The translations under genes were made by a program, and so were the position numbers. This document shows, in pieces, positions 28,224 to 39,723 of a stretch of 64,000 nt of DNA (its first letter is position 1; the number at the start of each line of letters is the position of its first letter). The stretch is from Phreatobacter aquaticus (lineage in GTDB: Bacteria; Pseudomonadota; Alphaproteobacteria; Rhizobiales; Phreatobacteraceae), in NCBI RefSeq assembly GCF_005160265.1, contig NZ_CP039865.1:2814828-2878827 (forward strand), given 5' to 3'. The notes below the pieces were generated by a model, which was not told where the DNA came from, ran no database searches, and saw only the letters and a list, made by a program, of their open reading frames with translations.

Positions 28224-29087
28224 ATGTCCCCCATGCTCTTCGGCGTTCCCTACGACCAACTCGCGATCCTTGCCGTCGGCCTTCTGGCCGCCGGTGCTGC
28301 CACGGGCATCCTGGCCGGTGTTTTCGGCGTGGGTGGCGGCGCGGTGATCGTGCCCGTCCTTTACGAGCTCTTCGGTGTGGTCGGCGTGCCGCTGGAGATC
28401 CGCATGCCGCTCTGCGTCGGCACCTCGCTTGCCATCATCATTCCGACCTCCATCCGCTCATTCCAGGCCCACAGAGCCAAGGGCGCGGTCGACATGGAGG
28501 TGCTGCGCGCCTGGGCCGTGCCGGTTGTCGTCGGCGTGATCGTCGGCTCGGCGGTTGCCCGCTACGCGCCGCCCGGGGTGTTCAAGGCGGTCTTCATCTT
28601 CGTCGCGGGCCTCTCGGCCTATCGCCTGCTCACCGGCAAGGAGCTGAAGTTCGGCACCGGCATGCCCGGCCCCGCCGGCATGGTCGCCTCCGGCGGCATC
28701 ATCGGTGTCCTGTCGAGCCTCATGGGCATTGGCGGCGGCCAACTCGGCAATCTCGTCATGATGGCCTATGGCCACACGATCCATAAGGCGATTGCCACGT
28801 CCTCCGGTCTCGGCGTGCTGATCTCCATTCCCGGCGCGCTTGGATACATCTATGCCGGCTGGCCCAAGGCCGCGGAGTTTCCGCAGGTCGCCGCCATCCA
28901 GTTCCCTTTCGCGCTCGGCTACGTGTCGCTGATCGGATTCCTGCTGTTCATCCCGACCTCGATCTGGACCGCTCCGATCGGCGCGCGCATCGCCCATTCC
29001 CTGCCCAAGCGCAAGCTTGAGGTGGCCTTCGGCCTGTTCCTGCTGATCGTGTGCCTGCGCTTCCTGTGGGATGTCGTGGCGCGCTAG
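28224..29087 (+). CDS. TauE/SafE-family membrane permease
   Basis: The 287-residue protein has about eight hydrophobic helices and the paired half-signatures of the family: F-G-V-G-G-G-A-V-I-V-P-V-L in the first half and M-G-I-G-G-G-Q-L-G-N-L in the second. Members move sulfite, sulfoacetate or other small organic anions across the inner membrane. No sulfonate genes are adjacent, so the substrate is open. Confidence 0.88.
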   Translation: MSPMLFGVPYDQLAILAVGLLAAGAATGILAGVFGVGGGAVIVPVLYELFGVVGVPLEIRMPLCVGTSLAIIIPTSIRSFQAHRAKGAVDMEVLRAWAVPVVVGVIVGSAVARYAPPGVFKAVFIFVAGLSAYRLLTGKELKFGTGMPGPAGMVASGGIIGVLSSLMGIGGGQLGNLVMMAYGHTIHKAIATSSGLGVLISIPGALGYIYAGWPKAAEFPQVAAIQFPFALGYVSLIGFLLFIPTSIWTAPIGARIAHSLPKRKLEVAFGLFLLIVCLRFLWDVVAR

Positions 29088-29098
29088 GCCGGCTTCGC

Positions 29099-29962
29099 CT
29101 AAGGGCGGCGCCGCGCACGCGCCGCTTGCCGCAACGCCTCGCCAATATCCGATGTACCGGGTGATACCGCCTGAGGAACGATTACCGCCCCGATTGTCGC
29201 TGGGCTGGGAACAGGTTGGCGCAATGCCTGGAGGTTCGTGCCCCCCACGGAAGCCACGCGCTGTGTCAATTCAATCCGGATTGGTCCCGCTCTGGGCGAC
29301 GGTTGCACGATCGAAATGTCCAGGCTTTGAACGTCGTCTCGCTTGTTGAAGCCCGCTGCGCTGACTGTTACTGGGACCAACTCAATTCCGGCATTTCCTG
29401 ACAATTTCGATGTTGCGCCGAAATCGACGCCGTACTCGTAACTTTCACCATTCAATTGCGCACCATTGGTACTCTGAGCGTAAGTGGCCTGCAGCCAGTT
29501 CTCAAAACCCAAGCCGTTGATAACTGGAAACGCATCCGTCGATCGAAATGGTCCGTTCGGAGTAATGCGCTCACATGGCCTCATCGGTGCCTGCGAATTG
29601 ATCGAGAACTTGAATGTCGTCTTGCGGGTTGTATTGGAGGTATGTTCCCACCCGAACCCGAAGTTCAATGTAAGTGGCGAGCCGCCAAGTGCGGCGATTT
29701 TCGCGTCCGCTCCTGCCGTCGCCTGGCTCGAGTTGACGATTTTGACCTCAAGCTCACCAGATATTTGCCATGGCCCCTTCAAGAAGGGGGCATTTGGATT
29801 TCGTAAGGCAAAGCTAGCAAATTCGCATCTGACGCCATTGAGAATACTCGAAACCGGGATGAAATCGCCCCCATCAACAGGTGGGATTGATGCGGTTGAG
29901 CAACCAGACAGCCCGACTGACAGAACAGCGACGGAAAGGTATGTTTTGCACATATCTATCAT
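29099..29962 (-). CDS. hypothetical lipoprotein, compositionally atypical
   Basis: The product (about 287 residues from MIDMCKTYL) has a lipoprotein signal with lipobox L-S-G-C, so it should be anchored to a membrane by a diacyl-Cys. The rest is rich in Ser, Thr, Asn and Gly and ends with a basic R-A-R-R-R-P tail. I recognise no domain. Codon use and base composition are clearly more AT-rich than in the neighbours, as is the gap after it, suggesting recent acquisition. ATG 29953 is an alternative start. Confidence 0.65.
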   Translation of the reverse strand: MIDMCKTYLSVAVLSVGLSGCSTASIPPVDGGDFIPVSSILNGVRCEFASFALRNPNAPFLKGPWQISGELEVKIVNSSQATAGADAKIAALGGSPLTLNFGFGWEHTSNTTRKTTFKFSINSQAPMRPCERITPNGPFRSTDAFPVINGLGFENWLQATYAQSTNGAQLNGESYEYGVDFGATSKLSGNAGIELVPVTVSAAGFNKRDDVQSLDISIVQPSPRAGPIRIELTQRVASVGGTNLQALRQPVPSPATIGAVIVPQAVSPGTSDIGEALRQAARARRRP

Positions 29963-30109
29963 CCGGAAGTTATTGTGGATTAACAATTAGCGCATCAAAA
30001 AAAAGTGTATAGTCAAACGTCAGAGATTCGAATGTATTTTGCCGGATAAATAAAATAGACTGTAGAACCCAGTGTCGCGTGTGTATTCGTGGCGATAAGC
30101 TTGTCCGTC

Positions 30110-30955
30110 TCACCCATAAATCCCAAGCCGCGCCAGGATCGTCCGGCCGATCGACAGGCGCTTGGAGGCATCGGCCATGGCGGTCATGTTGATGTTGAGG
30201 CAGAAGGCGTGGACGTTCTCGCCTGTGTCGATCCAGCCGGACCACCAGCCGATTTTCGGCGTGCCGGCGGCAAACCAGCCCGTCTTGGCATAGAGCGTGC
30301 GCGGCCCTTGAGTCTCCAACGTCACGATCGAGCGGACAATGGCTTGCGCGCGCGATGAGGCGGGCAGCCGGTCGCGGGCAAGCCGGACGTTGAACCGCAC
30401 CTGTTCCACGGCGCTCGTCATCAGCGGTCCCCGGAGCCAGAACATGTCCACCACGGTTCCCGGATCCCGGTTGCCATAATCCAGCCGCGCCAGCCATTCG
30501 CGATAGCGCTCGATGCCGATGCGCCGCGCCAGTTCCTGGTAGACCGGCACATTGGACACGACGATGGCCTCCTTCAGCGACATGTCGCGCTCCCAGGCCT
30601 TGATCGGTTGAGGCCTGCCGCCATAGGGAACGATCTCATTCTCGTCAGCGACGGCGCCGGCCTCCAAGGCGATCAGGCTGTTGGCGATCTTGAACGTGGA
30701 GGCCGGCACGTAGCGCCGCTCGGCGCGGGCGCGGTCGACATAGGTCCAGACATCGGCTTTGAGGTCGTAGCTGACGAAGCAGCCGCTCACGCCGTGCTCG
30801 CGGAAGACCGAGCGCAGGTCGGCCCGCTCACCCGTGGCCGGCTGGGCGCGAAGCAGGCCGGGCGCCGTGACGAGGCTCAAGGCGCCCAACGCCAATTCGC
30901 GGCGGCTGGGGTGTGTCAAAGGGGCGAATGACATGGACGAACAAGCTCCCGGCAT
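30110..30955 (-). CDS. class D beta-lactamase (OXA-like)
   Basis: The 281-residue protein carries all class D active-site elements: S-T-F-K (P-A-S-T-F-K-I-A-N-S), S-N-V (V-V-S-N-V-P-V-Y), Y-G-N (L-D-Y-G-N-R-D-P-G), a W-rich segment and K-T-G (A-K-T-G-W-F). It should hydrolyse penicillin-type beta-lactams through a serine acyl-enzyme in the periplasm. The N-terminus has a Tat-like R-R motif (PSRRELALGALSL). Start at ATG 30955, with GAGG six bases upstream. It is not on a visible mobile element; its neighbour is the first AMP-ligase cassette, and a broken relative lies at 34518-34645. Confidence 0.92.
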   Translation of the reverse strand: MPGACSSMSFAPLTHPSRRELALGALSLVTAPGLLRAQPATGERADLRSVFREHGVSGCFVSYDLKADVWTYVDRARAERRYVPASTFKIANSLIALEAGAVADENEIVPYGGRPQPIKAWERDMSLKEAIVVSNVPVYQELARRIGIERYREWLARLDYGNRDPGTVVDMFWLRGPLMTSAVEQVRFNVRLARDRLPASSRAQAIVRSIVTLETQGPRTLYAKTGWFAAGTPKIGWWSGWIDTGENVHAFCLNINMTAMADASKRLSIGRTILARLGIYG

Positions 30956-31017
30956 CGTCGCCTCACGTTGACTGCCTTCATGGCTAACGTGAGACCGATC
31001 GCTCGCAATTCGATCAT

Positions 31018-32442
31018 TCAGCGGCGTGCAAGCGCCTTCAGCTTGGCGCGTTCGACCTTGCCCATGGCATTCCGGGGGATGGCGTCCACCACCAGCAGGT
31101 GGCGCGGCGCGATCAGGTCCGATCGGCGGGCGCAGGCTGCCAGGAGGTCGGCCTGATCCAGATGGCCGCGCGGAACGACCGCCAGCCAGATCTCATCGAC
31201 GCCCGATGCGCCAGGAAGCCCGAATGCCGCGACATCGGCAATGTCCGTGCGCCCGGCTGTGAGCTCCTCGATCCGTTCCGGGGCGATCTTCACGCCGCCG
31301 CTGTTGATGAGGTCATCCGACCGGCCGGCAATGATCAGGCGCCCGTCCGCCGTCAGGTGGCCGGCATCACCCGGGTAGAACCAGTCGGGCGAACGGTCCG
31401 GTGTCAGGGTTCCTGGCGTATAAGCGCGTCCGCCGCCGGGCGTGAGAATGCGCACGCGCCCTGTCGCCCCTGGTGGCAGGGGTTGATCCTGCTCGTCGAC
31501 GATCTGGATCGTTCGGTCGGGGACCGGCACGCCGACGCAACCCGGCTCGCTCTCGATCATCGCGGTCGTGGCCATGGCGGTGCGTCCGGCCTCGGTCGAT
31601 CCGTAGATCATGATGATGTGCTGGCAGATGCGGCGCTTGATCGCCTCGAGCAGCGGCTTCGACAGGCTGCTGCCACCGGTTTTCACCAACCGCAGTGAGG
31701 CGCAGGAGGCCGGAACTTCCTCCAGCGCCGCGACCAGTTCTGCCAGCTGGTGCGGCGACCCAATGATGGTCCCGACCTGGTAGAGGTCGATCAGCCTTGC
31801 GGCTTCCTCCGCGGCCTCGGCGATGCACAGGGTGCGGGCCGACACGAGCACGCGGGCCGCTTGTGCGATGGCCCATTGCGAGTTGAGGCCGATCAGCAGG
31901 AGATCGCGCTCGGTTCCCGGTGCCGGCTGGTAGCGATAGAGATCGCGCACGCGCCGGTCGAAATCCTCGACGGTGAAGGGGATCAGCTTCGGCTGGCCGG
32001 TCGTTCCCGATGTCAGAGCCAGCAACGACAATCTGTCGGGGGCGGACGCAGTCGGATCGACCGGATAGGCTGCGCCAGCTGGCTCGAACCACCGGCCATC
32101 GACGATGATGGTGCGCGCGCCAACCGGCGCCATGATCATGGCATCAGTGAGCACCGCCACAGCCCCGACCGATGGGAGCAGCCGCACCTCATCCGGGCGG
32201 GCGGGAAGAACGACCAGTCCGAGGCGCATGGCCGCAGACATCAGGGCGATGAAGCGGATCGGATTGGCGACAGCGACAAGGACGATATCGCCGGGCTTCA
32301 AGCCAGCACCATGCAAACGTCCTGCGACCGAGTGGATCGCATCGGACAACATGCCGTAGGTCACGATGCGGTCCGATGTCATGATCGCCGGCCGGGTAGG
32401 AAAGAGCCTGCCATGCAGCAGCACTGCGTCGACGAAAATCAT
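31018..32442 (-). CDS. AMP-forming acyl-CoA synthetase-like ligase, cassette copy 1
   Basis: The 474-residue protein belongs to the ANL superfamily: A3 loop L-T-S-G-T-T-G-Q-P-K (about residue 143), A5 Y-G-S-T-E-A-G, A7/A8 Y-P-G-D-A-G-H-L and the C-terminal catalytic Lys in R-N-A-M-G-K-V-E-R. All core motifs are intact, so it should activate a carboxylic acid as acyl-AMP, then probably as a CoA thioester. It is at the short end of the family. A homologue at 34651-36075 has the same length and order, and the start faces the divergent Bug gene across 62 bases. The substrate is unknown. Confidence 0.88.
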   Translation of the reverse strand: MIFVDAVLLHGRLFPTRPAIMTSDRIVTYGMLSDAIHSVAGRLHGAGLKPGDIVLVAVANPIRFIALMSAAMRLGLVVLPARPDEVRLLPSVGAVAVLTDAMIMAPVGARTIIVDGRWFEPAGAAYPVDPTASAPDRLSLLALTSGTTGQPKLIPFTVEDFDRRVRDLYRYQPAPGTERDLLLIGLNSQWAIAQAARVLVSARTLCIAEAAEEAARLIDLYQVGTIIGSPHQLAELVAALEEVPASCASLRLVKTGGSSLSKPLLEAIKRRICQHIIMIYGSTEAGRTAMATTAMIESEPGCVGVPVPDRTIQIVDEQDQPLPPGATGRVRILTPGGGRAYTPGTLTPDRSPDWFYPGDAGHLTADGRLIIAGRSDDLINSGGVKIAPERIEELTAGRTDIADVAAFGLPGASGVDEIWLAVVPRGHLDQADLLAACARRSDLIAPRHLLVVDAIPRNAMGKVERAKLKALARR

Positions 32443-32504
32443 GGTTTGGCCTCAGTTCGAAGTTTAAGACGAGTAGAACAGAACCGGTTGATTGGCGACA
32501 ATAC

Positions 32505-33491
32505 ATGCCAGATGTGATGCATGCGGAAATGGAGATGTGCGCCGGTAGCGTGTCGCGCCGCGGGGCGATGATCGGGGCGGCCTTGTCGGCCTTTGCTTTC
32601 GACCGCGCCGTCGCCCAATCGCAAGGTCTGAGAATTGTCGCGCCATTTTCGGCCGGAACGGTAATTGATGCCATGGCGCGCCGCCTCGCCGAGGCCTTGT
32701 CGTTGCACCTGCCGGAACGACCTGTCGTGATGAATCGCGATGGCGCTTCCGGGACGCTTGCGTTTGCCGAACTGGCCCAAAGCCCAGCCGACGGATCCTC
32801 GGTGATCTTCGGTGCGGCCAGCCCCCTGGTCGTCCACCCGCACCTGCGTCGTGACCCCAAGCTCGACCCCGCCGACTATCGGCCGGTCTGCCAGATGTTC
32901 GAACAACCGCTGGTTCTGGTGGTCTCGCGACGGTTGGAGCTGCGCAATGTGGCAGACCTCGTGGAATTGGCGAAGAAGCGCGCTGGCGCGCTGAAGTTCG
33001 GTCATTACGGCCTGGCCTCGGCCACGCATATCGAACTGCTCGGCTTTGCGCGGACTGCCGGTGTCGAGGTGATCGAGGTGCCCTATCGCGCGCATGGCCA
33101 ACTGGTGGCCGATCTCGCGAGCGGGGCGCTCGACGCGGCCATTTCGACGCCCGGCACGTTCGACACAGGTGTGATCCAGCCATTGATGCTGATTGCTGGC
33201 CAGCCCATCGCTCTCTATCCGGACCTGCCGACCTCGGCTTCGCTCGGGTTCCCCCCGGCACTGCCGGTCTTCGGTGGCGTCTTTGCGCGTGCAGGGACAT
33301 CCGACGAAACGCTGGCCCGTCTGGCGCGAGCATTCCGGGCAGCGTCCGAGGAGCCGGATTTCCAGGCAACAGCCCGCCGGCTCGGCGTCCTGACGATCTT
33401 CGGCGACGGAGATGCCTTCGCCCGCCGCATAAAAGAAGAGAGCCTGCGGGTGCAGGCTCTCCTGGGTCGGCTTGGTCTCGTGTCGCAATGA
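32505..33491 (+). CDS. Bug-family (TctC-like) periplasmic binding protein, cassette copy 1
   Basis: The 328-residue protein has a Tat-like signal (VSRRGAMIGAALSAFAFDRA) and the Bug fold of tripartite tricarboxylate transporter receptors: I-V-A-P-F-S-A-G-T-V-I-D near the start, V-V-M-N-R-D-G-A-S-G-T-L-A and V-P-Y-R-A-H-G-Q in the second lobe. Bug proteins bind carboxylates or nicotinate-like ligands. No TctA/TctB permease is encoded here, so it may serve a distant transporter or a sensor. It diverges from the ligase gene, and its end almost meets the convergent porin gene. Confidence 0.88.
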   Translation: MPDVMHAEMEMCAGSVSRRGAMIGAALSAFAFDRAVAQSQGLRIVAPFSAGTVIDAMARRLAEALSLHLPERPVVMNRDGASGTLAFAELAQSPADGSSVIFGAASPLVVHPHLRRDPKLDPADYRPVCQMFEQPLVLVVSRRLELRNVADLVELAKKRAGALKFGHYGLASATHIELLGFARTAGVEVIEVPYRAHGQLVADLASGALDAAISTPGTFDTGVIQPLMLIAGQPIALYPDLPTSASLGFPPALPVFGGVFARAGTSDETLARLARAFRAASEEPDFQATARRLGVLTIFGDGDAFARRIKEESLRVQALLGRLGLVSQ

Positions 33492-33501
33492 CGCCTAGGC
33501 G

Positions 33502-34206
33502 TCAGAAGCGGTAGGCGGCGCCTGCGCGGACCTGGATCTGCGAGCTCCGCGAAGCGAAGGAATAGCCATTGTTGGTCAGATCGCGCGGCCTGTTGGTGCC
33601 GAAGTCATAGTAGAGGGCTTCAAGCCGCACGGTCCAGTTCTGGCTGACCATGTACTCGCTGCCGAGGCCCACGACATAGCCGAGCCGGAAGCTGTCAGAG
33701 CGGGCGACCACGAACCCATTGTCGACATAGCTCTGCGACGGGTTCCCAAAGGCCAGACCGCCCGTCACGTAGAACAGGGCCTTGTCGACCGCGACGCCCG
33801 CGCGCCCACGCAGGCTGCCGGCGAACTGCGACTTCGAATTGACGAACGCATAGCCGCCGGAGACATGCGCGCTGCCGCTCGCCGTGTTGTAGGTGATGTC
33901 GGCCTCGATGCCGAACACGAGATTGGCCGACGTCTGCCAGTTGTAGCCAGCGAACAGGCCGAGCGCGACGCCGACCGGGCTTGAAGTGAATGACGTGTTG
34001 GGCGGGTTGTAGATGCCGCCGATGTCGGTCCAGCGATTCTGGCCGATTCCTGCCCCGAGCAAGGCGCCGGCATAGGCGCCGGTCCAGTTGGCCACGCCGG
34101 ATGTCATGGCGACCGGCACGCGGGGCGCGCCCAGACCCTGGCCATGGGCGCTGCCAATGGTGAGGGCGAGCAGTGCGACGGAGGAGAGAAGCTTGGCGCG
34201 GGTCAT
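33502..34206 (-). CDS. Omp25/31-type outer-membrane beta-barrel protein, cassette copy 1
   Basis: The 234-residue product starts with a signal peptide (MTRAKLLSSVALLALTIGSA). It continues with the typical N-W-T-G-A-Y-A-G opening of small Rhizobiales porins, alternating beta strands (F-A-G-Y-N-W-Q, A-G-S-L-R-G-R-A-G, Y-V-T-G-G-L-A-F-G) and the C-terminal aromatic signature G-A-A-Y-R-F needed for BAM assembly. It is probably an eight-stranded outer-membrane barrel. Start at ATG 34206; 11 upstream codons have no signal-like features. Confidence 0.88.
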   Translation of the reverse strand: MTRAKLLSSVALLALTIGSAHGQGLGAPRVPVAMTSGVANWTGAYAGALLGAGIGQNRWTDIGGIYNPPNTSFTSSPVGVALGLFAGYNWQTSANLVFGIEADITYNTASGSAHVSGGYAFVNSKSQFAGSLRGRAGVAVDKALFYVTGGLAFGNPSQSYVDNGFVVARSDSFRLGYVVGLGSEYMVSQNWTVRLEALYYDFGTNRPRDLTNNGYSFASRSSQIQVRAGAAYRF

Positions 34207-34400
34207 TCGATCTCGATTGCCAGGTTCAGGGGAAACCAACTATTTGGAATCGATACATCCAGAAACGGAAATCTGCAATCGGTTGCTCCGAGTGTCGCGA
34301 AGATGACTCCATGATTGCGACAATCAAGCAACAATTACCCAGCGCGGAAGTCGATATTGACCGACGGCTCATGGGATAAAGCTATGAGACTGATGCGCTG

Positions 34401-34517
34401 TCGCAGAACAATCCGCCCTTCGCTCTGCGGCGCAACTGTTTCCCGGCCGCGCCGATACACAACGACACCCGACGCAGCCAGCTTGCCCTTCACGTCGGCA
34501 TCGGTGACCCGCAGGCC
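34401..34517 (-). pseudogene. 3'-end fragment of a 5'-nucleotidase gene
   Basis: Read on the minus strand the segment encodes G-L-R-V-T-D-A-D-V-K-G-K-L and ends G-R-I-V-L-R, matching the last 39 or so residues of the intact 5'-nucleotidase at 38082-39617 (GLRVTDADVKGKL ... GRITLR). A stretch of about 33 bases is nearly identical between the two. The native stop codon is lost (CAG instead of TAA) and everything upstream of the fragment is missing. It joins directly to a beta-lactamase fragment at 34518. Confidence 0.8.
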
Positions 34518-34645
34518 AGGCGCACATTGAGCCGGACCTGATCGACGGCATTGATCATCAGCGACCCACACAGCCGGAGCCGGTCTACAGACATGCCGGG
34601 ATCGAGGTTCCCATAGCGCGAGATGGGTCAGCCATTCGCGACAGG
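34518..34645 (-). pseudogene. internal fragment of a class D beta-lactamase gene
   Basis: About 117 bases align with the interior of the intact beta-lactamase (about 30389-30505). One frame retains R-E-W-L and another, one base shifted, retains Y-G-N-L-D-P-G and then A-V-D-Q-V-R-L-N-V-R-L, matching YGNRDPG and AVEQVRFNVRL of the intact gene. Both ends are missing and a frameshift divides the piece, so it cannot make an enzyme. It ends a few bases before the stop of the second ligase gene. A single open frame across both fragments is accidental. Confidence 0.8.
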
Positions 34646-34650
34646 ACCAT

Positions 34651-36075
34651 TCAGCGTCCAGCAAGGGCCTTCAGTTTGGCGCGTTCGACCTTGCCCATCG
34701 CATTGCGGGGGATCGCATCGACAACCACGATCCGCACCGGCGCAAGCGTCTCGGAGCGCCGGCGGCAGAAGGCAATCAGCTCGTCCGGCTGCACGGGCTG
34801 TCGCTGCACGATGGCAAGCCAGATCTGATCGAAACCACCAGCGCCGCGAACAGCGAAGGCCGCCGCATCGGCAATGTCCCGCCGTCCCGCCACCAACTCC
34901 TCGACCCGGTCAGGCGCAACCTTGAGCCCGCCGGCATTGATCAATTCGTCGGTGCGCCCTTCGATCACCAGCAGGCCCTCCGCCGTCAGGTGCCCGAGGT
35001 CGCCGGGATAGAACCAGTCCGGTGTCCGGTCGGGATAGAGCGTACCGCGCTCGTAGGGCCGCCCGCCGCCTGCCGCAATGATCCGGACGCGCCCCGAGGC
35101 GCCCGGCGCAACGGCGTTGTCCTCGTCATCGACAATCTCCAGCCGGGCCGAAGGCACGATGTGGCCGACGCCGCCTGGAATCATCTCGACGGTATCGAGC
35201 GACGCAAGTGCCGTCTTGCCAGCCTCTGTCGAGCCATAGCCGACCAGAACTAGCGGGGTGATGCGCTTCCGGATGCCAGCTGCAAGCTCAGCCCCGAGCA
35301 TCGCCCCCGCCAGCGAGGCCAACCGCACCGATGCGCAGGAGACCGGTGCCTCGTCGAGCGCCGCCAGCAGGCCCGCGAACTGCTGCGGTGAGCCAAGGAT
35401 GACCCCCACTTGGTAGAGATCGATCAGCCGCACCGCCTCCTCGGCGTTCCGGGCCAGGCACACCGTGCGCGCCGAGGCGAGAGCACGCGCCGTTTCCGAC
35501 AGGGCCCATTGCGAGGCGAAGCCGATCAGCACCAGATCACGCTCGGTGCCCGGCGCACCATGATAGAGCATCAGGTTTCGCAGGCGCAGGTCGAATTCGC
35601 CCACAGTGAAGGGAATGGCCTTCTGCTGCCCTGTCGTACCCGAGGTTAGCCCGAACATGATGAGGCGGTTCGGATCGCGCGATGCGGGATCTATCGGATA
35701 GGCGGCATCATCCAACGGCTGGAACCACCTGTCGTCGACGACGACAAGGCGCATCGCCTGAGGCGTGGCCATGGTGCGGCTCGCCAACACGGCGGTGATG
35801 CCGACCTCCGGCACTTCGGTGATGGAGCCGCTCGCCGTCATCGAGACCATCCCGAGATTCATCAGGGCCGAGACGAGAGTGAAGTGGCGGATCGGGTTCT
35901 CGATATCGACGATCACCATGTCTCCGGACCGGAAGCCTGCCTGGTGAAGGCGCGCGGACACCCAATGGATCTCGTCCGACAGCATCCTGTAGGTGACCCG
36001 CCGATCAGCCATGATGATGGCAGGGCGGTTTGGAAAGAGACCGGCGTGCAGGTGGATCGTATCGACGAAGATCAT
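34651..36075 (-). CDS. AMP-forming acyl-CoA synthetase-like ligase, cassette copy 2
   Basis: The 474-residue paralogue of the ligase at 31018-32442 has equal length and the same opening (MIFVD) and close (NAMGKVERAKLKAL). The ANL motifs are intact: L-T-S-G-T-T-G-Q-Q-K, G-Y-G-S-T-E-A-G-K, Y-P-G-D-L-G-H-L and the C-terminal Lys in M-G-K-V. The A3 loop differs (QQK for QPK). Conservation of all catalytic residues in both copies argues that both are used, perhaps on different acids. It diverges from the second Bug gene across a 155-base gap. Confidence 0.88.
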   Translation of the reverse strand: MIFVDTIHLHAGLFPNRPAIIMADRRVTYRMLSDEIHWVSARLHQAGFRSGDMVIVDIENPIRHFTLVSALMNLGMVSMTASGSITEVPEVGITAVLASRTMATPQAMRLVVVDDRWFQPLDDAAYPIDPASRDPNRLIMFGLTSGTTGQQKAIPFTVGEFDLRLRNLMLYHGAPGTERDLVLIGFASQWALSETARALASARTVCLARNAEEAVRLIDLYQVGVILGSPQQFAGLLAALDEAPVSCASVRLASLAGAMLGAELAAGIRKRITPLVLVGYGSTEAGKTALASLDTVEMIPGGVGHIVPSARLEIVDDEDNAVAPGASGRVRIIAAGGGRPYERGTLYPDRTPDWFYPGDLGHLTAEGLLVIEGRTDELINAGGLKVAPDRVEELVAGRRDIADAAAFAVRGAGGFDQIWLAIVQRQPVQPDELIAFCRRRSETLAPVRIVVVDAIPRNAMGKVERAKLKALAGR

Positions 36076-36230
36076 GGCGGGCGTTCCGGCTCAGGCACTG
36101 TTGCACGGTCCGACAGAGACGACAGTTCATCGCAGATGGAGTGCGAGAGGCAGGCTAGAGCAAATCGACGATTCCTGACGGGGATTTTTCGGCTAGACGA
36201 TCGCGGACAGGATGAAGCAGGGCATGCGGC

Positions 36231-37205
36231 ATGCGGACATCATCGCTCGTGACGATCAATCGGCGGACGCTGGCTCTCGGCGTTGGTCTGCTCGCTGTCG
36301 CCCCGGTCGGGCGCTCAGCGGTCGGGCAGGACAGGGGGCAGATCCGCATCATCGTGCCCTTCTCCGCGGGAACGACCATCGACGCCCTCGCGCGCGGCCT
36401 TGCCGAGGCCCTGGAGCCATCGCTCGGCCGCCGTCCGATCGTCGCCAATCGCGATGGAGCGGCGGGCACGCTCGCCTTTGTCGATCTGGCCCAGGCAGAG
36501 CCGGACGGCCTGACGCTGGTCTTTTCCGGACCGACCCAGCTCACCGTCCATCCGCATCTGAGGCGCGAGCCGCATCTTGATCCCGCGGCCTATCTGCCGC
36601 TCTGCCAAGTTTATGAGCTGTCCTTCGTGCTGGTCGCCTCCAAGGCCTCCGGCATTGCCGATGTGGCGGACCTGGTGCGGCGGGCGGCAGCGGCCCCCGG
36701 CACACTGCGCATGGGCCACCAGGGTCGGGCGGCCGCCACCCACCTGCAGTTGATGGGTTTCGCCACCAGTGCCGGCATCGGCGTCAACGACATTCCCTAT
36801 CGCGCTCATGGCCAGATGCTGGCGGATCTCGCCAATGGTCAGCTCGATGGCGCGGTGCTGGCAACCGGATCGTTCGATCCCGCGCTGGTTCGCCCACTGG
36901 CGGTCTTCTCTGAGCGGCTATCGCCGGTCTATCCGGGCGTGCCGACCATCGGCAGTTTCGGATATCCCATTTCGCTCCAGGCATTCGGCGGATTGTTCGC
37001 TCGCGCTGGTCTAGCGCCGGACCGCCAGGCGATGCTGGAGGAGGCGTGCCGCCAGGCTTTCGAACGTCCGGTCTTCCGGGATATCGCCGCCCGAACCGGC
37101 GTCGAGGCGATCTACGGCGATCACGCCGCCTTTGCGGCGCGCCTCAGCGGTGAAACACAGCGGATGAAGTCGCTGCTCGATCGGCTCGGGCTGACGCCGA
37201 ACTGA
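36231..37205 (+). CDS. Bug-family (TctC-like) periplasmic binding protein, cassette copy 2
   Basis: The 324-residue paralogue of the protein at 32505-33491 has a Tat-like signal (TINRRTLALGVGLLAVAP). The matching segments are I-I-V-P-F-S-A-G-T-T-I-D, V-A-N-R-D-G-A-A-G-T-L-A-F and I-P-Y-R-A-H-G-Q-M. Like copy 1 it lacks an adjacent TctAB permease. The stop is 10 bases from the convergent porin stop, the same arrangement as in copy 1. Confidence 0.88.
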   Translation: MRTSSLVTINRRTLALGVGLLAVAPVGRSAVGQDRGQIRIIVPFSAGTTIDALARGLAEALEPSLGRRPIVANRDGAAGTLAFVDLAQAEPDGLTLVFSGPTQLTVHPHLRREPHLDPAAYLPLCQVYELSFVLVASKASGIADVADLVRRAAAAPGTLRMGHQGRAAATHLQLMGFATSAGIGVNDIPYRAHGQMLADLANGQLDGAVLATGSFDPALVRPLAVFSERLSPVYPGVPTIGSFGYPISLQAFGGLFARAGLAPDRQAMLEEACRQAFERPVFRDIAARTGVEAIYGDHAAFAARLSGETQRMKSLLDRLGLTPN

Positions 37206-37215
37206 CCCGTCCAGA

Positions 37216-37914
37216 TCAGAAGCGATAGGCGGCGCCGACGCGCACCTGCAACTGGGACGACTGAGCGGTGTAGACATAGCCGGCATTCAGCAGGTCGGTC
37301 GGCCGCGCACTGCCGAAGCCGTAATAGAGCGCTTCGAGACGCACGGTCCAAGCCTGGCTGGCCATGTACTCGACACCCGCGCCGAGCGCGTAGCCGATGC
37401 GGAAGCCATCGTAACGTGCGCCGATGTTCGGATTGTTCAGGAGATCTGTGCGAATCTGCGACGGGTTGCCGAAGGCAAGGCCGCCGGTAACGTAGAACAG
37501 GGCGCGGTCGATGGCATAGCCGGCGCGGGCGCGCAGGCTGCCAGCAAAATTGGCGTGGCCGTGAATCCAGGCCCAGGTGGGTAGGACGACCGCGGTCCCA
37601 TTGGCCGTGCTGTAGGTCAGATCGGCCTCGAGACCGACGACGAAATTCTGCGACAATTGCCAATTGTGGCCGGCGAACACGCCAAAGGCGACGCCCATCG
37701 GGTTCGAATTGTAGTTCGAATTGTTGGGGCCATAAGCGGCGTTGACGTCAGTCCAGCGGTTGAAGCCCCAGCTCGCGCCCGCCAGTAAGCCAGCATAGGA
37801 GCCGGTCCAGTTGACCGCGACCGGCGTGCGCGGTGCACCGAGGCTCTGCGCATTGGCGGTGCCGGCCGACAGCGCAGCAACAGCGACCGATGAAAGAAGT
37901 GTTGGGCGGATCAT
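37216..37914 (-). CDS. Omp25/31-type outer-membrane beta-barrel protein, cassette copy 2
   Basis: The 232-residue paralogue of the porin at 33502-34206 has signal MIRPTLLSSVAVAALSAGTANA, opening V-N-W-T-G-S-Y-A-G, internal A-G-S-L-R-A-R-A-G-Y and Y-V-T-G-G-L-A-F-G, and C-terminal G-A-A-Y-R-F. The loop regions differ most from copy 1, as expected if surface-exposed parts have diverged. Confidence 0.88.
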   Translation of the reverse strand: MIRPTLLSSVAVAALSAGTANAQSLGAPRTPVAVNWTGSYAGLLAGASWGFNRWTDVNAAYGPNNSNYNSNPMGVAFGVFAGHNWQLSQNFVVGLEADLTYSTANGTAVVLPTWAWIHGHANFAGSLRARAGYAIDRALFYVTGGLAFGNPSQIRTDLLNNPNIGARYDGFRIGYALGAGVEYMASQAWTVRLEALYYGFGSARPTDLLNAGYVYTAQSSQLQVRVGAAYRF

Positions 37915-38081
37915 GCGGGCGGACCGTTCATATTCGAAGTGTCTATAGTAGCAGGCAGGTTAGCCAGACGCGAGGATTCCGGCAATCGGGGAAACAGCCG
38001 TTCAGGCACATTCGCAATCGTCGCGACATATTCGCAACATACGGACGGATATATTGAATCCGGTGTTGCAGGTCTTCTCAT

Positions 38082-39617
38082 TTAGCGCAGTGTTATGCGG
38101 CCCTCTGTCCTCGGCGTGATCGTGCCGAGACTGCGCAAATGGACCATCACATCCGAGGCAACCAGCTTGCCCTTCACGTCGGCATCGGTGACGCGCAGGC
38201 CGAGCGCCGTATAGCCGTCGCCACCGCGCAGCATGAAGTCGTTGGTCGCGACCTTGTAGACCTTGTCGATGTCGAGCGGCTGGCCGCCGACTTTCACATC
38301 GACGATGCGGCTGCCGGCGGGGCGGTCGCGTTCGACCGTGACGGTCATGCCCGAGACATGGGGGAACCGCCCCGCACGCTGTTCGATCTCGGAGACACCG
38401 TTCTCCAGCGCGGCGATGATGTTGGCCCCCGTGACCTCGGCCACCACGGTGCGGTTGCCGAAGGGCATTTCGGTCAGCACATCGCGCCGGGTGAAGCGGG
38501 TGCCAGCGGGATAGATCTTGTTGCCGCGCATGGCGCCGCCATTGGTGATCGCGACATCGGCGCCCGATGAGATCCGCATGGCGTCGGTGACGAGATTGCC
38601 GAACGCCGTCTCCTGCGAGCGCACCATGGCGGTCCGCGTATCGAGTTCGCCGGCGAGCGTGGCGATCACCACGTCGAGCTCCTCCGACAGCATCTTCTCG
38701 TATTGCTGGACGCGGGCGATCGTCTCCGGATCGGGGGTCACCAGCCGGCTGTCGTTGACGCGGAACGAGGGCGTGTAGGTGACGCGCTTCTCGGCCCCTT
38801 CGCCCGATGTGCCGAGCGTCAGGTCGATGGCGGTGACGTAATAGCCCTCCTCGGAACTCTCCACCATCACGGTGCGGCCGTCATAGGTAATGGCGAGGTC
38901 GTGGTCGTGGCCGGTCAGCAGAATATCGACGAGACGCGAGCGGACGATGTCGAGGTCGTCCTTGCGGTCGGTATGGGCGCAGCAGACGACTAGATCGGCG
39001 CCGTCGCGGCGGAGGCGGGCGGCTTCGCGACGCACCGTTTCCATGGTCGGCAGGAACTTCATGTCACCGGAGGATGAGAGTTCCGGCGTTGTCGGTAGGG
39101 CAACGCCGAACACGCCGAGCTTGACGACGCCGAGGTCGAAGATCTTGCCGTCGATATGGCCACGCAGCATCGATCCGTCTGCAGCCCGCATGTTCGCCGC
39201 GTAGAACGGGAACCTCGCCTCGTCCATCCGCTTGAAATAGGCCTCGGGTCCGAAATCGAACTCGTGATTGCCCGGCACGAACACGTCCGGGGCCGCCATG
39301 TTGGTGAGCTCCACCGTATGCGCGCCCTGATCGAAACCGGACATCAGCGAGGGCGAATACATGTCGCCAGCGTGGACATAGATCATGGGCAGCCCACGCG
39401 CCCGCTCGGCCTTGACGATGGCGTTGAGCCTGGCAAATCCCCCGCGGCCCTTCTCCTCGCCCATCTTGTAGATGTCGTTGACCAGCAGCAGCGTCACCAC
39501 CTTCGCGCCGGCCTGGGCGATGACTGGCCCGGCGGCAAGCGAGGTCACGGCGGCTCCCGCGCCGAGCCCGAGATTCAGTGTCTGGCGACGGGTGATGACG
39601 GTCGTTGGTGCGGTCAT
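38082..39617 (-). CDS. 5'-nucleotidase / UDP-sugar hydrolase family phosphoesterase
   Basis: The 511-residue secreted enzyme has a Tat-like signal (VITRRQTLNLGLGAGAAVTS) and an N-terminal metallophosphoesterase domain with G-N-H-E-F-D-F and L-T-G-H-D-H-D-L. The C-terminal substrate domain has N-G-G-A-M-R-G-N and G-G-D-G-Y-T-A-L-G. It should release phosphate from extracellular nucleotides in the periplasm. The usual N-terminal D-x-H metal motif reads V-N-D-I-Y here, so one metal ligand may be replaced. Start chosen at MTAPTTVITRRQ, in front of the Tat signal. A broken copy of its 3' end lies at 34401-34517. Confidence 0.88.
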   Translation of the reverse strand: MTAPTTVITRRQTLNLGLGAGAAVTSLAAGPVIAQAGAKVVTLLLVNDIYKMGEEKGRGGFARLNAIVKAERARGLPMIYVHAGDMYSPSLMSGFDQGAHTVELTNMAAPDVFVPGNHEFDFGPEAYFKRMDEARFPFYAANMRAADGSMLRGHIDGKIFDLGVVKLGVFGVALPTTPELSSSGDMKFLPTMETVRREAARLRRDGADLVVCCAHTDRKDDLDIVRSRLVDILLTGHDHDLAITYDGRTVMVESSEEGYYVTAIDLTLGTSGEGAEKRVTYTPSFRVNDSRLVTPDPETIARVQQYEKMLSEELDVVIATLAGELDTRTAMVRSQETAFGNLVTDAMRISSGADVAITNGGAMRGNKIYPAGTRFTRRDVLTEMPFGNRTVVAEVTGANIIAALENGVSEIEQRAGRFPHVSGMTVTVERDRPAGSRIVDVKVGGQPLDIDKVYKVATNDFMLRGGDGYTALGLRVTDADVKGKLVASDVMVHLRSLGTITPRTEGRITLR

Positions 39618-39723
39618 GGGACTTGGCCTCGTGGAGGCGGGACAATGGTCCGTGTCGGGGGGCGGTGACAAGAGGCGAGTTCCGCGCCGACAGGCGGAAA
39701 CATATCGGCTCTATCCCGCCACC

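Follow-up and report, generated by a model that had tools for sequence, protein, structure and literature searches.

In a 64-kb window of the genome of a freshwater Phreatobacter (positions 2,814,828–2,878,827 of 4,974,952 bases in a single contig), a set of three genes stands twice side by side: an AMP-forming (ANL) ligase, a TctC/Bug receptor, and an Omp25-like outer-membrane barrel. The new element described here is that, as judged from identity patterns among related cassettes, the receptor and the core of the ligase seem to be exchanged as a single block, while the rest of the cassette forms a constant frame. We read the trio as a carboxylate capture-and-activation cassette, in which Bug and ligase core form one specificity block, and give this reading a probability of about one half.

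On a molecular level, the Bug would bind an acid in the periplasm and pass it to a TctAB permease that many Bugs share and whose genes lie elsewhere. In the cytosol, the ligase would adenylate the acid, most likely yielding a coenzyme A (CoA) thioester. The specificity block would comprise the Bug and the N-terminal acyl/ATP-binding core of the ligase, and the constant frame would comprise the barrel (Omp) and the C-terminal lid of the ligase; the Omp—a predicted 8-stranded barrel—may aid access from the outside and would be dispensable. The window itself would hold two diverged types side by side, brought about by an old illegitimate tandem join of β-lactamase-like and nucleotidase genes.

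The doubled cassette and its relatives

The two copies consist of the following genes (E, expectation value; pLDDT, predicted local distance difference test):

31018–32442, minus strand: LIG1, AMP-forming (ANL) ligase, type 1; PF00501 at E 1e-39; in a three-row clade with the G003 C37 and G006A ligases
32505–33491, plus strand: BUG1, TctC/Bug orphan receptor of type 1 (Tyr at the position of TphC Q150), with a putative twin-Arg signal; PF03401 at E 7e-32; closest solved protein TBP (8hka), E 1e-31
33502–34206, minus strand: OMP1, Omp25-like outer-membrane barrel; PF13505 at E 4e-14; signal peptide and C-terminal Phe by eye
34651–36075, minus strand: LIG2, AMP-forming ligase, type 2; PF00501 at E 8e-33; sister of the G010A ligase (78%)
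36231–37205, plus strand: BUG2, TctC/Bug orphan receptor of type 2 (Gln at the position of TphC Q150); PF03401 at E 3e-33; model pLDDT 89.3
37216–37914, minus strand: OMP2, Omp25-like outer-membrane barrel, 8 strands predicted; PF13505 at E 3e-13; model pLDDT 87.5

All six reading frames are open at these coordinates, which bears out the description in the first-pass annotation of this DNA of three gene types occurring twice in the same order and orientation; for OMP1, an alternative TTG start is possible at 34239. Both copies carry the Pfam families AMP-binding, TctC, and OMP_b-brl (PF13505), whose barrels we take to be the ones named Omp25-like. The copies share 57% (ligase), 49% (Bug), and 59% (Omp) amino-acid identity, direct DNA repeats in the window are spaced by 3.6–3.7 kb, and the ratio of nonsynonymous to synonymous substitution rates (dN/dS) between and around the copies is 0.15–0.40 in 12 comparisons. 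Read along the minus strand, the order is 5′-nucleotidase, Omp2, Bug2 (antisense), Lig2, a scar, Omp1, Bug1 (antisense), Lig1, and a β-lactamase-like gene. In both copies, the Bug lies antisense between Omp and ligase, a geometry that the first-pass annotation did not describe: it meets the Omp tail-to-tail at 10 bp, and a gap of 62 or 155 bp separates its start from the divergent ligase. Hence, the trio is not one operon.

The arrangement exceeds chance: LIG1 matches 30 merged ligase places in its own genome, of which only the two in the cassettes have a Bug or Omp within 1.5 kb, and the trio recurs in other genomes. It was found in 6 of 12 Phreatobacter genomes and also in G050 and L084, where the genes are ordered differently and the Bug belongs to another clade; the earlier reservation that no other genome might show the three genes together thereby falls away. 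The ligase subfamily, screened by scoring the best 26 candidates per genome, is present at E 1e-50 in 6 of the 12 Phreatobacter genomes (G003, with 8.4 Mb and a contamination of 6, may be a mixed bin; G001 and G009 are 89 and 85% complete). Ten Phreatobacter cassettes bear a Bug antisense beside the ligase, nine of them also an Omp, and these nine are all ordered Omp, Bug (antisense), ligase. By their flanks, the ten cassettes occupy a minimum of four sites: the nucleotidase site in the window, G003, G006, and G010; one common to G005 and G011; another common to G006 and G010; and a fourth in G003. The ligases, Bugs, and Omps of the cassettes form one clade each (Shimodaira–Hasegawa-like approximate likelihood ratio test values of 99, 100, and 99 in quick trees). 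The ligase tree comprised 98 of 110 ligases of at least 200 bits, leaving out those below 225 bits (except L003) and the repeat L035; the own-genome rows were 19 Omps and 20 Bugs—from 20 and 20 fetched of 29 and 57 places—plus one each from L148.

For the wider ligase group, the best 80 of 420 candidate loci were compared and, with six Phreatobacter loci (L068–L072 and L082) left out, 74 were counted. In 19 of these, the ligase has a Bug at a distance of at most 1 kb (23 copies; the count uses stop-to-stop frames, which can overlap and so enter one Bug twice), and in 17 it has an Omp (18 copies, by a profile built from matches in the same loci); beyond 1 kb, there are 16 Bug copies and one Omp copy. 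The zone within 1.5 kb of the ligases amounts to 215 kb and the remainder to 578 kb. In an all-against-all comparison, the families present in most loci were the ligase (84), Bug (31), Omp (26), and an ABC-type ATPase (15). An order-wide sample of 397 genomes, which may overlap with the named loci, includes 15 with the subfamily at E 1e-60. Seven of these are Phreatobacter; the other eight have 10 ligase places, with an Omp at 8 (one weak, 47 bits) and a Bug at 2 in the 1.5 kb compared. Three more distant ligases within the genus have neither Omp nor Bug in the 1.5 kb compared. By these counts, the barrel–ligase pair is more widespread in Hyphomicrobiales than the full trio. In G050, L084, L077, and L078, the Bugs found next to the ligase or close by form a clade (98) separate from the cassette Bugs, and Burkholderiales Bugs fall elsewhere again; it is likely that Bugs were recruited repeatedly to this ligase clade, with the deep branches of the Bug tree being weak.

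These counts bear on a simpler explanation, namely that three unrelated neighbors are carried together by recombination and duplication, with Bug and ligase differing in their substrates. The genome of the window abounds in Bugs (57) and Omp barrels (29), and block exchange of adjacent genes requires no selection. A third own-genome Bug–Omp pair within 1.5 kb (L148:5559–12004, near 2,986 kb, convergent) has an AMP ligase 2.3 kb away that is 25–26% identical to the cassette ligases, so that such neighbors can arise by chance; with 25–28% identity to the cassette's ligase and Bug and 31–40% to its Omp, this locus was itself taken as chance. In contrast, none of the other 28 merged ligase places of the genome has either neighbor within 1.5 kb, the cassettes stand at several sites in the genus, and the Bugs near the wider ligase group belong to several clades, which points to repeated recruitment. 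We consider linkage without a shared substrate possible, but doubtful.

The frequent Omp invites yet another explanation, in which the ligase is biosynthetic—for example, acylating a surface molecule—the barrel is a surface protein, and the Bug merely scavenges a precursor. Outside Phreatobacter, the recurrent partner of close ligase relatives is indeed the Omp, often without a Bug within 1.5 kb, and ligases form arrays of up to four in some loci (L076). However, no biosynthetic family stood out in the all-against-all comparison—a weak argument, as its clusters are unannotated and proteins below 120 amino acids (e.g., acyl carriers) were excluded. Overall, a biosynthetic role seems unlikely.

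Some loci of the group show arrangements of their own. In L076:5614–14935, an Omp is followed by four consecutive group ligases and a large protein with a subthreshold YfhO match, with a Bug ~5 kb upstream of the first ligase. L097:5492–12578 (Xanthobacteraceae) bears another ligase–Omp doubling: ligase, Omp, ligase, Omp, and two weakly Bug-like genes. Shortened AMP-binding paralogues of ~380–400 amino acids and with no match to the C-terminal domain occur near an Omp–ligase pair in L077:5792–6943, L078:2316–3524, and L135:6847–7992.

Apparent exchange of receptor and ligase core, and a probable tandem join

The block behavior is most apparent between G006 and G010, which are close relatives (synonymous divergence, dS, of four flanking genes 0.19–0.46) and carry a cassette, G006A and G010A, at the same site with shared flanks. 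Between these two cassettes, DNA identity amounts to 86.6% in the Omp and 82.5% in the ligase C-terminus, but to 56.8% in the Bug and 63.1% in the ligase core. G010A and window copy 2, on the other side, are 75.8% identical in the Bug and 78.3% in the ligase core. Quartet sites joining G006A with G010A, G010A with window copy 2, and G010A with window copy 1 number 91:8:3 in the Omp, 15:121:17 in the Bug, 28:108:21 in the ligase core, and 34:2:5 in the C-terminus, and approximately unbiased tests reject the opposite pairing in every region (p 3.6e-54, 1.6e-50, 7.5e-7, and 1.6e-4, respectively). The switch points lie at the end of the Omp and somewhere in about ligase residues 360–420—a range that presumably includes the hinge of the ligase—and none of the 11 type-diagnostic ligase positions is beyond residue 294, which places all of them in the core. 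Ordinary ortholog pairs (G005/G011 and G006B/G010B) show no identity dip in Bug or core; hence, these parts are not simply faster evolving. The two window copies display the same pattern weakly, with DNA identities of 66% (Omp), 56% (Bug), 61% (core), and 68% (C-terminus).

The apparent exchange of Bug and ligase core as one block suggests that both recognize the same acid. A more general scheme is put forward tentatively: a modular system might retain a constant frame of barrel and lid, while receptor and acyl-recognition domain are swapped as a co-adapted block, so that substrates could be changed or added in one recombination step and tandem pairs would hold two specificities.

In the exchanged block, window copy 2 and G010A show a dS (Bug 0.77, ligase core 0.93) that resembles the one of four flanking genes (0.50–0.89), so that both types look old at the nucleotidase site. 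For the same reason, we do not favor the idea that the type-2 block passed recently from one to the other of the window lineage and G010. An ancestral tandem pair that collapsed by crossovers—at the Omp end in G006 and in the ligase in G010—would fit the mosaic, but Omp and lid of G006A and G010A are not closer to the expected window copies.

Between the two window copies lies a scar, absent from the first-pass annotation, which can be traced to the two genes flanking the doubled cassette:

34402–34644, minus strand: join scar, an internal class D β-lactamase-like fragment (34644–34510) running into the last ~130 bp of a 5′-nucleotidase-like gene (34534–34402); from alignment versus shuffles
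38082–39671, minus strand: 5′-nucleotidase-like gene, source of the 3′ half of the scar and host gene of the site; PF02872 at E 7e-41; in 12 of 12 genus genomes
30110–30955, minus strand: class D β-lactamase-like gene, source of the 5′ half of the scar, host gene; NF012161 at 270.7 bits versus a cut-off of 250

The first part of the scar (34644–34510) matches the β-lactamase-like gene (30506–30373) at 93 of 135 positions, with a score of 99 versus a maximum of 39 in 300 shuffles, and the second (34534–34402) matches the 3′ end of the nucleotidase gene (38217–38086) at 95 of 133, with a score of 111 versus a maximum of 41 in 300 shuffles; the 5′ part of the β-lactamase fragment was not found. 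We infer an illegitimate tandem join, whose expected trace is an intact nucleotidase gene on one side, an intact β-lactamase-like gene on the other, and a chimaera in between. Since, with the nucleotidase piece, the window's own gene scores highest (104 versus at most 84 in 11 relatives) and the β-lactamase piece is tied between the genes of the window and G011 (89 each), the sequences suggest that the join happened in the window lineage. A simple recent duplication and divergence of one cassette is insufficient as an explanation: LIG2 groups with G010A, LIG1 with G003 C37 and G006A, and divergence in the scar does not exceed that in the genes.

The site is found free of cassettes—with nucleotidase, β-lactamase-like gene, and TauE—in G001, G002, G005, G007, G009, and G011; the G004 site is without the β-lactamase-like gene, and the G008 site bears neither this gene nor TauE in the short stretch compared. 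Of the 11 other Phreatobacter genomes, 8 have a chromosomal class D β-lactamase above the NCBIfam cut-off next to the nucleotidase gene. A possible lipoprotein gene (29099–29986) without Pfam or NCBIfam match occurs, among the compared stretches of relatives, in the window only.

Several observations weigh against a capture-and-activation cassette with a specificity block. No permease and no downstream acid-breakdown gene was recognized among the 10 neighboring proteins scanned (28224–39671), the position of the Bug on the opposite strand leaves co-expression not assured, and the Omp is absent from the cassette G003 C21 and from some relatives, e.g., L074. As to the exchange, the mosaic of G010, a metagenome bin, could have arisen by chimaeric assembly; because Bug and ligase core adjoin, two crossovers would move both without a functional reason; the region borders and diagnostic positions were picked after inspection of the data; and a type 2 that unites window copy 2 and G010A with G005 and G011 has weak support in the ligase core (57/30). 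Finally, the scar, presumably neutral, is 69–71% similar to its sources and thereby about as similar as the cassettes are to each other (56–68%), so that the two copies were probably already different types when joined.

Ligand recognition, permease, and barrel

Both ligases have intact TSGTTG, YGSTEAG, and GR-D motifs and the Lys of NAMGK, in agreement with the first-pass annotation; we take these motifs to have their usual catalytic roles. SGTTG, PGD, GR, and GK are invariant in the 10 aligned rows, and PF00501 is above its cut-off; the C-terminal lid domain PF13193 is matched over its full length at 21.8 and 23.7 bits, below the cut-off of 24.5. The G010B ligase was dropped from one alignment because of a stop codon. 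In the second ligase of G010 (L033:9268–10677), a stop codon near the start leaves the remaining frame open, which might reflect a broken gene, a later start, or an assembly error. The best solved relative of LIG1 by sequence is 6qjz (E 2.5e-34), among the oxalyl-CoA and other acyl-CoA synthetases of the ANL type. However, none of the best 25 of 98 and of 86 NCBIfam models for substrate subfamilies reached its cut-off (best 166.5 bits versus 476), and with both ligases far below every cut-off listed, no substrate is transferable. A plasmid-borne cassette was looked for with the LIG2 protein, which had no match at 1e-40 in the plasmid collection.

The BUG2 model best matches TBP, TphC, BugD, and AdpC (Z 35–36), and terephthalate receptors are the closest solved sequences of both Bugs. 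By eye, a twin-Arg precedes a hydrophobic stretch in both window Bugs and in 7 of the 8 cassettes with an aligned N-terminus, G003 C21 being the exception. Bug positions were called type-diagnostic if fixed within and different between types, using three type-1 and four type-2 rows mapped to TphC. There are nine of these, three of which (100, 101, and 164) fall on TphC P86 (within one residue) and Q150. Both residues are described to shape a narrow pocket in TphC, and P86T/Q150S abolishes terephthalate binding (PMC8556258). Among the ten cassettes, Q150 is kept only in type 2 and G003 C21, and the most divergent ones, G006B and G010B, mix both type patterns at the diagnostic positions. The earlier proposal that the two copies serve two related substrates is hence plausible, given these differences and the low dN/dS. 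Terephthalate itself is an unlikely ligand: TphC depends on T155 to bind its ligand, and each of the ten cassettes has Ala or Ser at this position; binding of the TphC type was rejected on this ground.

No TctA is found within 100 kb of the cassettes, and the six TctA of the genome lie elsewhere (TctB was not searched for). The receptors are thus orphan Bugs, as the first-pass annotation had stated, and not part of a canonical tctCBA operon of the tripartite tricarboxylate transporters. The genome encodes 57 Bugs versus 6 TctA, and only 5 Bugs have a TctA within 3 kb. The uptake-and-activation route proposed earlier is plausible insofar as the three families form a real conserved neighborhood, but it is not self-contained; judged by gene content, the cassettes, if importing, must borrow a permease encoded elsewhere. 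Most Bugs have been described as orphans whose permeases are possibly shared (PMC5812351, PMC11452294, PMC5994714). One TctA gene without a Bug within 3 kb (G000:C1:2134521–2135777) is a candidate shared partner for orphan Bugs.

An orphan receptor might also report the acid to a signaling partner—like BctC to BctE—instead of delivering it, with ligase and barrel as the response. Signaling of a TctC protein via a two-component system is known (PMC5812351), no permease stands beside the Bug, and ligase and Bug diverge from one short gap of 62 or 155 bp. On the contrary, no histidine kinase or regulator was found among the 10 neighboring proteins, and no conserved operator is visible by eye in the aligned ligase–Bug gap of nine cassettes. 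A sensing role is very unlikely in our view, and capture for activation by the ligase stays the preferred reading.

The cassette Omp combines PF13505, a signal peptide (by eye), a C-terminal Phe, and eight predicted strands; in its model (232 residues, pLDDT 87.5), DSSP assigns ten strand segments, which are read as eight with two pairs only two residues apart. Foldseek matches include OmpA (E 1e-7), OmpW (1.5e-6), and OprG (2e-5), which likewise have 8 strands. However, TM-scores over the model are only 0.46–0.50, and the larger barrels OmpT and FadL match at similar E-values; by sequence profile, no solved relative was found at E 0.01. Wide diffusion porins have about 16 strands. With its 232 residues and eight predicted strands, the Omp is unlikely to be a classical wide porin by this model, and a narrow channel is still compatible with it. 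The claim that the barrel admits the acid is therefore doubtful: the low strand number and the barrel-free cassette G003 C21 speak against it, whereas the 8-stranded OmpW of Caulobacter is described as a cation channel (PMC4659666). For OprG, a lateral channel route was proposed (PMC2993939).

Comparison with known systems

Most Bugs are orphans with unassigned ligands and permeases, and a receptor that is inherited, and seemingly also exchanged, together with the acid-recognizing domain of a soluble, assayable enzyme offers a direct handle on them: the acid of the ligase, once found, should lead to the ligand of the Bug, with the second type as a built-in control. If the proposed block is real, receptor and enzyme specificity evolve as one recombining unit.

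In the literature searched, with subscription papers outside it, no trio or Bug–ligase cassette of this composition is described, in agreement with the first-pass annotation; orphan Bugs beside enzymes for their ligands are known (PMC5812351, PMC8556258, PMC11452294). In Bordetella, the enzyme gene neighboring the orphan Bug69 (nadQ–nadC) pointed to quinolinate as its ligand (PMC11452294). The cassette differs in enzyme and pathway, and neither a barrel nor a block exchange is mentioned for Bug69 in the available part of this source. AdpC (RPA4515) of Rhodopseudomonas palustris is an alphaproteobacterial orphan Bug for medium-chain dicarboxylates (PMC5812351). Compared at the protein level, it matches the BUG2 model in fold with Z 35.2 at 24% identity in the structural alignment, and its PDB name mentions a Tat (twin-arginine translocation) signal.

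Another close arrangement is the tph operon of Comamonas, in which the gene for the orphan Bug TphC stands beside the catabolic genes for its ligand terephthalate and the permease TpiBA is encoded elsewhere (PMC8556258). TphC matches the BUG2 model in fold with Z 35.7, and among solved proteins, both Bugs are nearest in sequence to TBP, the Ideonella receptor for terephthalate. The TphC pocket residues (P86, Q150, T155, and T242) are not all kept in the cassettes and the 10 neighboring proteins include no dioxygenase; instead of such an enzyme, the partners of the receptor are an AMP-forming ligase and an outer-membrane barrel.

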